Notes under the pieces: model-generated | The model's input: only the letters and a program-made list of their open reading frames with translations | What the model was told of the DNA's origin: nothing | The model's database searches: none | Assembly: GCA_017634575.1 (NCBI GenBank) | Contig: JAGBND010000042.1 | Location: 1 to 34,461 of the forward strand | Direction: 5' to 3' | From: Bacillota bacterium | GTDB lineage: Bacteria; Bacillota; Clostridia; Lachnospirales; Bianqueaceae | Length of the DNA: 34,461 nucleotides | In this document: piece by piece, positions 18,520-21,904 of the stretch | How the letters are laid out: the number at the start of each line of letters is the position of its first letter | Numbering within the stretch: position 1 is the first letter of the stretch | Program-made: the position numbers and the translations under genes

Positions 18520-19341
18520 ATGAAAAGAGCCGATGGCGTACGCGTTAAAAACGAAGCCCCTATGTATTACCTGGTCCCGCATGTTCTTCCCAAACGATAT
18601 GATGCCATGAACATGTGCACGGTGGATATTCCCATCAAACCGATGCAGGATTACCGGAATGCAAAACGGAAGGAAGGCATCCAGATTTCCCATCTTGCTC
18701 TGGTCCTTTGCGCTTATATGCGGGCGGTGGAAAAGTTTCCTGCCTTAAACCGCTTTATTGCCAACAAGCGGATTTATCAGCGCAACGAGGTCTGCGCTTC
18801 CATGGTCGTCCTTCGCCCCGGCCACGAAAATGATACCATGGCAAAAATGTATTTCAATCCCAAAACCGATACGATTTTCGATGTTCAGCGGATCGTGGAC
18901 ACCTATATTAACGGAACAAGGGACGAAAACAATTCCAATTCACTGGATAAACTCATGGCGCTTATCATGAAATACGATTTTCTGGTGGCCGGCATTATGA
19001 ATGTGCTTCGCTTTGCCGACCGCCACGGACTGCTGCCGAAGGCCATCATCGACGCCAGTCCTTTCCACGCCACGCTGCTGATCACCAACCTGGCCAGCAT
19101 CCGCACCAACCATATTTACCATCATCTCTACGAGTTCGGCACCACCAGCGTGGGGATCGCGATGGGCAATCCCAGAGAAATCCCCCACACCACTGTAAAA
19201 GGCGAAATGACTCTGGAACGCTGCATTCCCCTTGGCATTGTCATGGATGAGCGCGTTGCCTCAGGCCACTATTTTGCACAGGTGTTCGCCTATGTGAAGG
19301 ATTTGCTGCGGCACCCGGAGAAAATGGAAAAACCTCTTTGA
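18520..19341 (+). CDS. Orphan E2-type (2-oxoacid dehydrogenase/CAT-fold) acyltransferase with degenerate active site
   Basis: This is a 273-residue protein resembling the catalytic domain of 2-oxoacid dehydrogenase E2 and chloramphenicol acetyltransferase. The N-terminal KRYDAMNMCTVDIPI strand and an ISHLALVLCAYMRAV helix fit the fold. Near the C-terminus LGIVMDERVASGHYFAQVF (~238-256) aligns with the E2 signature DHRxxDG, but the catalytic His is Glu244 and the Asp is Ser248. There is no lipoyl or subunit-binding domain and no E1 or E3 gene nearby. It may therefore be catalytically altered, a binding protein, or use another residue. The start has an AGAGGGAGA site. A strong promoter with a palindromic operator precedes it, and a long structured inverted repeat begins 4 bp after the stop. 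Family call moderate; activity unknown. Confidence 0.65.
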   Translation: MKRADGVRVKNEAPMYYLVPHVLPKRYDAMNMCTVDIPIKPMQDYRNAKRKEGIQISHLALVLCAYMRAVEKFPALNRFIANKRIYQRNEVCASMVVLRPGHENDTMAKMYFNPKTDTIFDVQRIVDTYINGTRDENNSNSLDKLMALIMKYDFLVAGIMNVLRFADRHGLLPKAIIDASPFHATLLITNLASIRTNHIYHHLYEFGTTSVGIAMGNPREIPHTTVKGEMTLERCIPLGIVMDERVASGHYFAQVFAYVKDLLRHPEKMEKPL

Positions 19342-19345
19342 CGTC

Positions 19346-19444
19346 GCAGCCATATATCCTGTCTGCATACTCTGCCGCAGCCTTGACTGTGTATAGAATT
19401 CTTCATAGTTGCGGAAGCCGTCTGCAGGCAGGATATATGGCTGC
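19346..19444. repeat. Long structured inverted repeat (possible 3'-UTR RNA or palindromic element)
   Basis: The outer arms at 19346-19367 and 19423-19444 are 22-bp inverted repeats with one mismatch that would be a G-U pair in one RNA strand. Inside, CCGCA (19375-19379) pairs with TGCGG (19410-19414), and ACTGTG (19386-19391) pairs with CATAGT (19404-19409), leaving a 12-nt loop. The element starts 4 bp after the acyltransferase stop codon. There is no U-tract directly after it, so it is not a standard terminator. It could be a 3'-UTR stabiliser, a small RNA or a miniature mobile palindrome. Confidence 0.75.
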
Positions 19445-19523
19445 TCTGTTTTGGTGGGAGGAAGGATCCAAATGGTCGGTATTAATTATATTCTATTGAA
19501 CAATGATTGATTGCTTGAAGAAA

Positions 19524-19553
19524 AAAGGACGCTTGACGCGTCCTTTCTCTTTT
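19524..19553. terminator. Bidirectional intrinsic terminator between acyltransferase and GH3 genes
   Basis: AAAGGACGC (19524-19532), a 5-nt loop and GCGTCCTTT (19538-19546) form a perfect 9-bp stem. On the plus strand it is followed by CTCTTTT. On the minus strand it runs into six T residues, so it can end transcription from the GH3 gene and from the convergent acyltransferase gene. The rest of 19445-19612 shows nothing else I can support. Confidence 0.85.
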
Positions 19554-19612: not shown

Positions 19613-21904
19613 TTATACGCCCATGTTCTCGGGTTTTGTAAGAGCGGGAACAGCGTACTTTTTGACGCGGTCGTCGCAGATGACGCCGGCGTAGTTGAGG
19701 CCGTAGGCAAAGTCATATTTGTGTCCGACGGAGTCGGTATAGCATTCCATGTCTCTCGGAACATCCTCAAACTGTTTTTCTACATCGTCCATGTCTTTGG
19801 GCATCTGCATGGGCAACAGTCCTGAGGGCTCGCTTGCGCCGCAGACGACTGCTGCCAGCGCTTCAGAGGATGCGGTTCCTCCGCCGTAGTTGGAGAGCTG
19901 GGAGAAGGTAACCAGGATGCCATCCACCGCAGGCTCGAACTCGTGGAAGCACAGCGGACGGCCGGTGAACATGGCTACCACGGAGGGAACGCCAAGTCTC
20001 TTTGCGGTTTCAGCCATTTCAAGGATCTGATCCAGCTGTTCTTCGTTGGTGGTCAGGGCTTTGCGTCCGAAGTAGCTGCGGTTTTCCTTGGTGCCGTCGT
20101 CCAGGGTATCACCGGCAATGGAAACCTTGCGCACATAGGGTCCATCCGCAACATAAGGTCTGTACTGACGGGTCAGCGGCACGAATTCGTGATCTTCGTT
20201 CCGGCCGTCCTGCGGGAAGGAGTTACCCGGTTCCTTGGCAGGAATCAGGATCAGGTCAATGTCCTTCAGCTCTTCATCCGTCAGACGGGTAATGTTGGCG
20301 CCGTCTACATGATCCGTGATGACATCGAAATATTTGGCTGCCATCTCCAGACTGATGGGATAGCTTGCCTTCGGCTCGGACTGAACGATACCGCGCACAT
20401 GATCCATTTCCTTGTGCGGCGCTTCATACAGAGCGGGCATATAAACCTTGATGCGGCCATCATGCGGACGGATCGCGCCGTTTTCATTTTTCACCATAAC
20501 GACGGATTTAATCTGAGCCTTCAGCGCTTCTGCCTGCTTGTCGGCGCTGTTTACGTCTGCCAGCGCAGCTTCCTCATCCAGATAGGGATCCTCGAAAAGA
20601 CCGGTCATGAAATATCCCTGCAGCAGACGCTGAGCGGAATGGGCAAAGGCCTCGTCCATCACTTCCTTGCCGACCTTCTCGCAGCCATAGTGGTAGGCAT
20701 CGATCAGCACCTGGGGATTGGAGCAGCCGCCCATCTGGTCGACGCCGACCATGATGGCAATAAAAGCGCGCTCAGCCGGATCCACATCCGGATCTTCGAT
20801 ATGTTTGCCCCAGCCGCAGGAACGTTTGCCTTCCTTTTTGCCTTCGTTCAGGACCATCCAGTCGGTGCAGACAACGCCGGTGAAGCCGTATCTCTTGCGC
20901 AGCAGCTGGTTGATCTTGTAATCAGAGAAGCTGGAGCCAACGGGCTCGCCAAGGGAACCATCCTCTTCAAAGGCAGCCGAATAAGAGCTCATGATAGCGG
21001 CAGCGGAACCGGTTTTGCCGTTCAGCTTGAAGGCGCCGTCAACAAAGGGAACCATCAGGGCTTCGAAGTTCTTGCCGGGGTAAACGGCATATTTGCCGCC
21101 TTCCAGGTGCGCCTCTCTTCCGCCCTCCGTGGTGCCTTCGCCGGTCCAGTGCTTGGCCATGGCCGTAATGGAATCCTTGCCCCAGCCCAGGTCATTTCCG
21201 TTTTCGTCGTAGGTGCTCTGCAGACCGTCGCAGAAAGCGCGGGCCATATCACGGGAAAGAGCGGGATCTTCACCAAAGGTGCCGCTGTTTCTGAACCATC
21301 TGGGCTCGGAGGAAATATCTACCTGCGGCGCCAGGAAGCAGGCAACGCCCAGGTCTCTGAGCTCCCTGGACTGGCATTTTGCGGATTCCAGCGCAATCTC
21401 CGGATCGAAGGTGGCTGCCAGAGACAGGTTGCCGGGCCAGTCGGAAACGCCTTGTCCGTTTCTGGGATCCGATGCGAAATAGCAGGGAATGCCAAAGTCT
21501 TTGCCTTCTACATAGCGCTGCATGTTGTTGGACCAGGCAATCTGAACCTCATCCGGAATTCCGCCCATGCCGCAGGAATTCAGCACGCTGCGCAGATGCT
21601 GGTTCAGGAAGGTCTTCTGTTCGTCATTGACATCCTTGCCGATATTGAATTGATGGGCAGAGAAGCACATCAGACCGGCAACCTGTTCGACGCTTAAGCG
21701 TTTTGCCAGATCATCCGCGCGCTCCTCGGGAGAAAGACGCCAGTCCTCATAAGGCAAAAGCTCACCTGTCTTAGCCAGGTCCTTAAAGGCAAAGCCATCC
21801 TTTTCGATGATTTTAACACCGCTTTCGGGGCTATAGGTAAGCCGTTTTCCGCCCTCATTCTCCACGATGTTAAACGCATACTTGGTTTGTTTCTCAGTCC
21901 ACAT
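19613..21904 (-). CDS. Glycoside hydrolase family 3 protein (beta-glucosidase/exo-glycosidase type)
   Basis: This is a 763-residue GH3 enzyme. The N-terminal TIM-barrel domain contains the substrate-binding KHW (Lys251-His252) and the nucleophile Asp348 in VVCTDWMV. The alpha/beta C-terminal domain has the FSQLSNYGGGTASSEALAAVVCG segment, and a short tail follows. There is no signal peptide, so it should be cytoplasmic. GH3 enzymes release terminal glucose, xylose, arabinose or GlcNAc; the exact specificity is not readable here. The start has a perfect AAGGAGG site 5 nt upstream. It follows a 131-aa unknown protein by 42 nt, probably in the same transcript from the promoter at 22432-22460. 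The bidirectional terminator at 19524-19553 lies 60 nt after the stop. Confidence 0.9.
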   Translation of the reverse strand: MWTEKQTKYAFNIVENEGGKRLTYSPESGVKIIEKDGFAFKDLAKTGELLPYEDWRLSPEERADDLAKRLSVEQVAGLMCFSAHQFNIGKDVNDEQKTFLNQHLRSVLNSCGMGGIPDEVQIAWSNNMQRYVEGKDFGIPCYFASDPRNGQGVSDWPGNLSLAATFDPEIALESAKCQSRELRDLGVACFLAPQVDISSEPRWFRNSGTFGEDPALSRDMARAFCDGLQSTYDENGNDLGWGKDSITAMAKHWTGEGTTEGGREAHLEGGKYAVYPGKNFEALMVPFVDGAFKLNGKTGSAAAIMSSYSAAFEEDGSLGEPVGSSFSDYKINQLLRKRYGFTGVVCTDWMVLNEGKKEGKRSCGWGKHIEDPDVDPAERAFIAIMVGVDQMGGCSNPQVLIDAYHYGCEKVGKEVMDEAFAHSAQRLLQGYFMTGLFEDPYLDEEAALADVNSADKQAEALKAQIKSVVMVKNENGAIRPHDGRIKVYMPALYEAPHKEMDHVRGIVQSEPKASYPISLEMAAKYFDVITDHVDGANITRLTDEELKDIDLILIPAKEPGNSFPQDGRNEDHEFVPLTRQYRPYVADGPYVRKVSIAGDTLDDGTKENRSYFGRKALTTNEEQLDQILEMAETAKRLGVPSVVAMFTGRPLCFHEFEPAVDGILVTFSQLSNYGGGTASSEALAAVVCGASEPSGLLPMQMPKDMDDVEKQFEDVPRDMECYTDSVGHKYDFAYGLNYAGVICDDRVKKYAVPALTKPENMGV

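Follow-up and report, generated by a model that had tools for sequence, protein, structure and literature searches.

A dispersed palindromic repeat of a Bianqueaceae bacterium that may form 3'-UTR hairpins

The window, a stretch of 34,461 nucleotides from one contig of a Bacillota bacterium of the family Bianqueaceae, carries a long hairpin between two convergent genes, which encode a protein with a 2-oxoacid dehydrogenase acyltransferase catalytic domain and a glycoside hydrolase family 3 protein (Table 1). A first-pass annotation, made from the sequence alone, had described this hairpin as a 99-bp nested inverted repeat starting 4 bp after a stop codon, with a 22-bp outer stem containing one wobble-type mismatch. 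The outer stem was borne out at exactly those positions: read directly, its 22 positions comprise 21 Watson-Crick pairs and one U-G, and four bases separate the TGA from the left arm. The arms thus lie as described over the 99 bp, but the repeat as defined by its family is slightly longer. The predicted folding energy of positions 19340-19450 is -58.2 kcal/mol, whereas shuffled versions average -31.3 (sd 3.7); the z is -7.28 and none of 200 shuffles is equally good, in agreement with the claim of a better-than-chance fold. The inner stem is real as well, but its exact geometry differs from the proposed 5-bp and 6-bp stems with a 12-nt loop; the predicted inner fold consists of short 2-bp steps, a 7-bp inner helix around CCGC/GCGG and a weak apical part. 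The separate terminator placed about 80 nt downstream is indeed a conventional terminator-like hairpin, and it may serve the convergent glycoside hydrolase gene too.

Table 1. The hairpin in the window and its neighbours; positions count from the first letter of the window.
Feature	Positions	Strand	Basis or remark
Upstream ORF, 273 aa, 2-oxoacid dehydrogenase acyltransferase catalytic-domain protein	18520-19341	+	PF00198, Pfam E 3e-8
Stop codon TGA of the 273-aa upstream ORF	19339-19341	+	
Whole repeat copy (covariance model match)	19344-19449	+	106 nt, 105.5 bits
Left arm of long stem (GCAGCCATATATCCTGTCTGCA)	19346-19367	+	Outer part variable among copies, pairing kept
Near-invariant core, left part CTGCATACTCTGCCGC	19363-19378	+	Core helix and conserved internal loop; alignment
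Apical part, with TARAAT-like stretch	19379-19410	+	Moderate conservation, 80% mean column identity
Near-invariant core, right part GCGGAAGCCGTCTGCAG	19411-19427	+	Alignment of copies
Right arm of long stem	19423-19444	+	Complementary to 19346-19367
U-rich 3' edge (TCTGTTTTG)	19445-19453	+	Family feature
Separate ordinary terminator-like hairpin with U-rich tail	19524-19546	+	Outside the repeat
Convergent gene, 763 aa, glycoside hydrolase family 3 protein	19613-21904	-	

BLASTN with a 111-base query matched the source genome (an assembly of 2.64 Mb in 157 contigs, 77.66% complete) at 41 places at E<=1e-3, one of them an antisense self-match. Stretches of about ±1.5 kb were taken around these places, the copies were aligned, and a covariance model was built on 32 of the 40 copies then known. 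Search of the same genome with this model returned 78 matches, which reduced to 49 distinct places after merging of opposite strands, together with one extra fragment of the repeat on contig C8. The hairpin in the window is one copy of this dispersed ~106-nt repeat, and the count of 49 is a lower bound because the assembly is incomplete. The ends of the repeat are sharp within a few bases (5' GTCGCC; 3' GGCTCTG and then T), and homology outside the element is absent in most copies. A conserved, unpaired GTC forms the 5' end. The letters of the outer helix of about 18 pairs vary by copy, with 64% mean column identity over most of it; the core CTGCATACTCTGCCGC / GCGGAAGCCGTCTGCAG reaches 98% column identity, asymmetric internal loop included, and the apical part of about 33 nt stands at 80%.

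Covariation analysis, which the first-pass annotation had put forward as a check, gave a clear result: pairing is kept while the arms change. Among the 32 aligned copies, 98.2% of 958 cells pair and 19 of 30 pairs show changes on both sides. The covariation score of 0.486 compares with 0.139 in shuffles, none of 500 shuffles being as high, and with at most 0.096 when the pairing is slid out of register. Eight copies stood outside this alignment, namely a truncated one (L010), five irregular ones (two at L013 and one each at L016, L033 and L038) and two near-duplicates of L027 (L026 and L034). Over all 49 copies and the fragment, standard pairs occupy 1,399 of 1,434 cells (1,364 Watson-Crick and 35 G·T), the remaining cells being 17 A·C and 18 of other kinds.

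Covariance model search found no copy of the repeat in six congeners, nor in twelve further genomes of the family except for one match in G013 (E 4.8e-4), which falls in a low-complexity coding-like stretch and was rejected as chance. When 295 genomes sampled evenly across the order were searched at E 1e-6 with stricter filters, the source genome was the sole match, and no match was obtained in phages, plasmids and viral contigs. A pattern scan for the exact core through 84,980 species genomes hit a single stretch, L054; it lacks paired arms, contains a long gap and lies inside a coding frame, which from its FGTDGFRG motif we take to be phosphoglucosamine mutase-like, and it was likewise dismissed as chance. 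Because the scan requires the exact core letters, diverged relatives could escape it. The first-pass annotation had proposed BLASTN of the element against its own and related genomes, and had counted a lack of copies in related genomes against it. Such copies are absent from the relatives searched, the six congeners included, but the source genome alone holds 49. The absence from relatives indicates, at the resolution of these searches, that the repeat family is young or newly acquired in the species. One congener, G003, has a different dispersed palindromic repeat of its own (L101:3004-3110 and L129), located downstream of two genes; it has 15 matches in G003, two in G005 and none in G006 or the source genome (G000).

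By approximate gene calls from a simple hexamer-trained gene finder, none of the 49 copies overlaps a predicted gene, and all are intergenic. A gene in the sense direction lies upstream of 34 copies and is lacking for the other 15. In the sense copies the median distance from stop codon to element is 23.5 nt; it is 50 nt or less in 29 of the 34, and in 10 the element starts within 15 nt of the stop codon. The genes on the 5' and 3' sides are arranged sense/anti, that is convergently, at 17 sites, sense/sense at 16, anti/anti at 8 and anti/sense at 6, and two copies lie at contig ends. Of the 17 elements at convergent sites, 15 lie closer to the gene that would transcribe them in the sense direction (p 0.002; this and the other p-values given here are optimistic because the copies are related by descent). 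The sense bias at purely co-directional sites is weak (16 to 8, p 0.15).

Some of the non-sense copies are found in apparent 5' leaders, on contigs C157, C68 and C86. These antisense copies (L012, L013 and L011, respectively) end in TCGG or TCGA, not TCTG, and those on C68 form a tandem pair; they possibly constitute a separate, leader-located subfamily. Close inverted pairs of copies, with 3' ends facing each other about 70-135 nt apart, occur at three loci, L012 (C157), L017 (C26) and L029 (C151). At L136:2712-3318, tandem short repeats that read FPQSLGDSWSISM in one frame lie between two copies of the element.

Just past the end of the model, T accounts for 62-69% of the letters at positions 2-4. 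TTTT is present at 21 of 48 sense edges, compared with 5 of 49 antisense edges and 13 of 144 control stretches, and the tail score of the edge is 3.06 against 2.40 in controls (p 4e-8). The edge scores of sense copies and others are similar (3.16 vs 2.83, p 0.11), so the U-rich edge belongs to the element itself. This enrichment begins a few nucleotides after the stem, and a standard terminator scan leaves the element uncalled. Separate conventional terminators do not discriminate, being found at 11 of 34 element-bearing gene ends and at 6 of 26 control ends. At one copy (C26:36160, L039), the congener G005 has retained the two convergent genes, and a short hairpin of ordinary type takes the place of the element between them; the site is syntenic and element-free, and its intergenic sequence has diverged too far for insertion ends to be defined.

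Additional information came from the imperfect pairs. G·U is tolerated in RNA, and the same change appears as A·C on the opposite strand. All 49 copies together hold 35 G·T against 17 A·C, or 33 against 16 once two near-duplicates are removed (p 0.02). Sense copies have 30 G-U to 6 A-C and all others 5 to 11 (Fisher p 4e-4), in a split examined only after the overall G-U excess was known. Permuting the context labels among copies in 20,000 shuffles gave the same p of 4e-4, and the difference persisted when duplicates and degenerate copies were removed (38 left; 21 to 5 vs 3 to 6, p 0.013). Reconstruction from the nearest copy assigned the G·U pairs of sense copies to A>G in 14 cases and to C>T in 15, with one unassigned. 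Since A>G is as frequent as C>T, one-sided cytosine deamination is insufficient to explain the excess. From this orientation-dependent polarity we infer selection on the fold of the transcribed strand, which appears to be the form under constraint. The earlier suggestion of an mRNA-stabilising 3' end agrees with these data in that both the location of the copies and their wobble polarity suit a transcribed 3'-end structure; stabilisation itself would be a plausible consequence of such a structure.

The first-pass annotation had also offered a palindromic mobile repeat as an identity. The repeat is evident from its 49 places in the source genome and mobility is suggested by the dispersal, since copies at unrelated sites in one species need some copying mechanism, but neither a transposase nor a clear target duplication was found. 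No mobiliser for the repeat was recovered, and the ORFs listed in the intervals separating three neighbouring copy pairs included none recognised as a transposase. The longest direct repeat in the flanks averages 4.23 nt versus 3.91 nt in swapped flanks, where the highest of 50 controls is 4.19, and the flank comparison revealed no consistent target duplication at the element ends. Dyad symmetry of the flanks is slightly above that of swapped flanks; when REP-flanked copies are left out, none of 100 controls reaches the observed value. Extended flank pairing is 8.1 vs 6.4 pairs for swapped flanks (none of 20 controls as high), a small effect that stems partly from REP-embedded copies. At L030, L031 and the window locus the congeners have a different gene order, so that comparison with putatively empty sites yielded no clear answer there.

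The source genome does encode one intact IS200-like RAYT transposase of 248 aa (PF01797; L096, G000 C122:15000-19000, positions 1737-2483 of that stretch), which sits between inverted 25-nt copies of AACACAGGGGACGGTTCTCTGTGTT (arms 789-813 and 2623-2647). AACACAGGGGACGGTTCTCTGTGTT is a second palindromic repeat of this genome, unrelated to the hairpin element. This REP occurs within 60 nt of 6 of the 48 element copies with full flanks, and some of these copies appear nested inside it. Two other PF01797 matches were seen, one in a stretch on C51 without an inverted repeat and one in a fragment on C125. The resident RAYT was considered and rejected as the obvious mobiliser, its own flanking REP being different in sequence from the element.

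Comparison with known systems places the element among MITE-like palindromic dispersed repeats in general, as it has tens of copies, a shared structure and an intergenic location. In the passages cited, the closest system in layout is YPAL/RU-2 of Yersinia, a dispersed intergenic long hairpin of ~168 bp that is not A+T-rich and lacks TA ends, targets sites at or adjoining dyad symmetry and is thought to affect upstream transcripts (PMC2229807). As described there, YPAL is longer and enterobacterial and has target duplications of 3-26 bp and an ORF, whereas the present element is ~106 nt long, lacks a clear target duplication and has been found in a single species. ERIC, NEMIS/Correia, RUP and bcr1 are, in the sections cited, intergenic hairpin repeats of ~100-170 bp with tens of copies or more, and ERIC RNA hairpins have a reported effect on the expression of neighbouring genes (PMC2229807, PMC2267715). 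According to these accounts ERIC, NEMIS and RUP have TA-ended terminal inverted repeats and target duplications, in contrast to the GTC...TCTG ends of the element, which contain no TA. Among the 92 such repeat families of Cozzuto et al. (PMC2267715), Table 3 lists the structured intergenic stem-loop repeats Clop-1 of C. perfringens (93 bp, 44 copies, 28 complete) and Clot-1 of C. tetani (74 bp, 19 copies, 16 complete), to which the likeness is one of tabulated description only. GTAG- and CGTC-tagged REPs are palindromes whose one end bears an unpaired tag and which occur chiefly downstream of genes; the CGTC type is presented in the cited part as having no known transposase and a tag that varies to TGTC (PMC3733652). 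By the same account their stems measure 5-13 bp (GTAG) and 8-9 bp (CGTC), the latter with a 4-5 nt loop, A/T first stem pairs and a CCA tail. The element differs in its ~22-bp stem with conserved internal loops, 33-nt apical part, G-C start and TCTG tail, and it does not flank the intact RAYT gene as GTAG REPs do, this gene being flanked by a different repeat. Two further papers were drawn on in part for comparison (PMC12306157, PMC2759123). The element family was not found in the open-access literature, which was searched by text rather than by sequence. It is best read as a hairpin repeat of MITE/REP-like kind that would work in the manner of YPAL, ERIC or NEMIS and lies outside the definition of every family tested, Clop-1 and Clot-1 having been compared by description and YPAL by length and layout.

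Taken together, we favour, with a probability of roughly 0.6, a species-restricted palindromic repeat whose transcript forms a 3'-UTR hairpin with a role in transcription termination, in stabilisation of the upstream mRNA or in both. A small non-autonomous element would spread through the genome, presumably by transposition, and its copies would settle mostly between genes, preferentially a few tens of nucleotides past stop codons and in the sense orientation. Upon transcription of the upstream gene, such a copy would become a long 3'-UTR hairpin ending in the U-rich edge. The hairpin would most likely end or slow transcription there and probably also shield the upstream mRNA from 3' exonucleases. 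A protein might recognise the near-invariant internal loops, or they might serve as a site for RNase III.

A clearly less probable reading holds that selection acts on DNA, with the folded single strand of a selfish palindrome serving as a transposase substrate, as REP hairpins do for RAYTs. Complementarity would then be kept by mobility or by hairpin-templated repair, and the sites behind stop codons would be tolerated insertions. Dispersal within one species, the copies beside or inside the resident RAYT's REP (6 of 48), the slight excess of dyad symmetry in the flanks and the conserved unpaired 5' GTC, reminiscent of the CGTC-tagged REPs as characterised in the cited part of PMC3733652, would all suit such an element. 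However, a DNA mechanism blind to strand gives no reason for the G-U/A-C polarity to track gene orientation, tolerance of insertions alone does not account for the stop-proximal position, on the 5' side, of 15 of the 17 convergent copies, and the RAYT's own REP has a different sequence.

The position behind stop codons and the U-rich 3' edge would also be expected of ordinary intrinsic terminators multiplied by gene conversion or duplication, without mobile character, and the congener with an ordinary hairpin at the same place between a conserved convergent pair points in the same direction. We consider this origin improbable, as terminators do not need a 33-nt core conserved to 98% with its internal loops, some copies lie upstream of genes, and most share no homology past the element. 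Free-standing small RNA genes, another proposal of the first-pass annotation, found no support and are very improbable. The strongly conserved fold and the TARAAT-like stretch in the loop would be compatible with them, but the start within 15 nt of the stop codon in 10 of 34 sense copies leaves little room for a promoter of their own; the window contains no Rfam 15 match above the gathering threshold, and matches at six loci fell far below the cut-off.

A bolder extension of the 3'-UTR reading, which we regard as doubtful, is that the element is a newly acquired, spreading and protein-recognised 3'-UTR module placed behind about thirty unrelated genes of one species, where it would replace terminators and subject them to one shared post-transcriptional control. 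If so, the wobble polarity, reversing as it does with gene orientation, would be the visible mark of selection for the RNA fold. The separate repeat of G003, absent from the source genome, speaks for rapid turnover of such repeats in the genus. For many palindromic repeats, the published picture is that of a DNA parasite whose RNA role is a guess. Should the polarity prove valid in more strains, it would provide a sequence-only test of RNA-level versus DNA-level selection applicable to any hairpin repeat.
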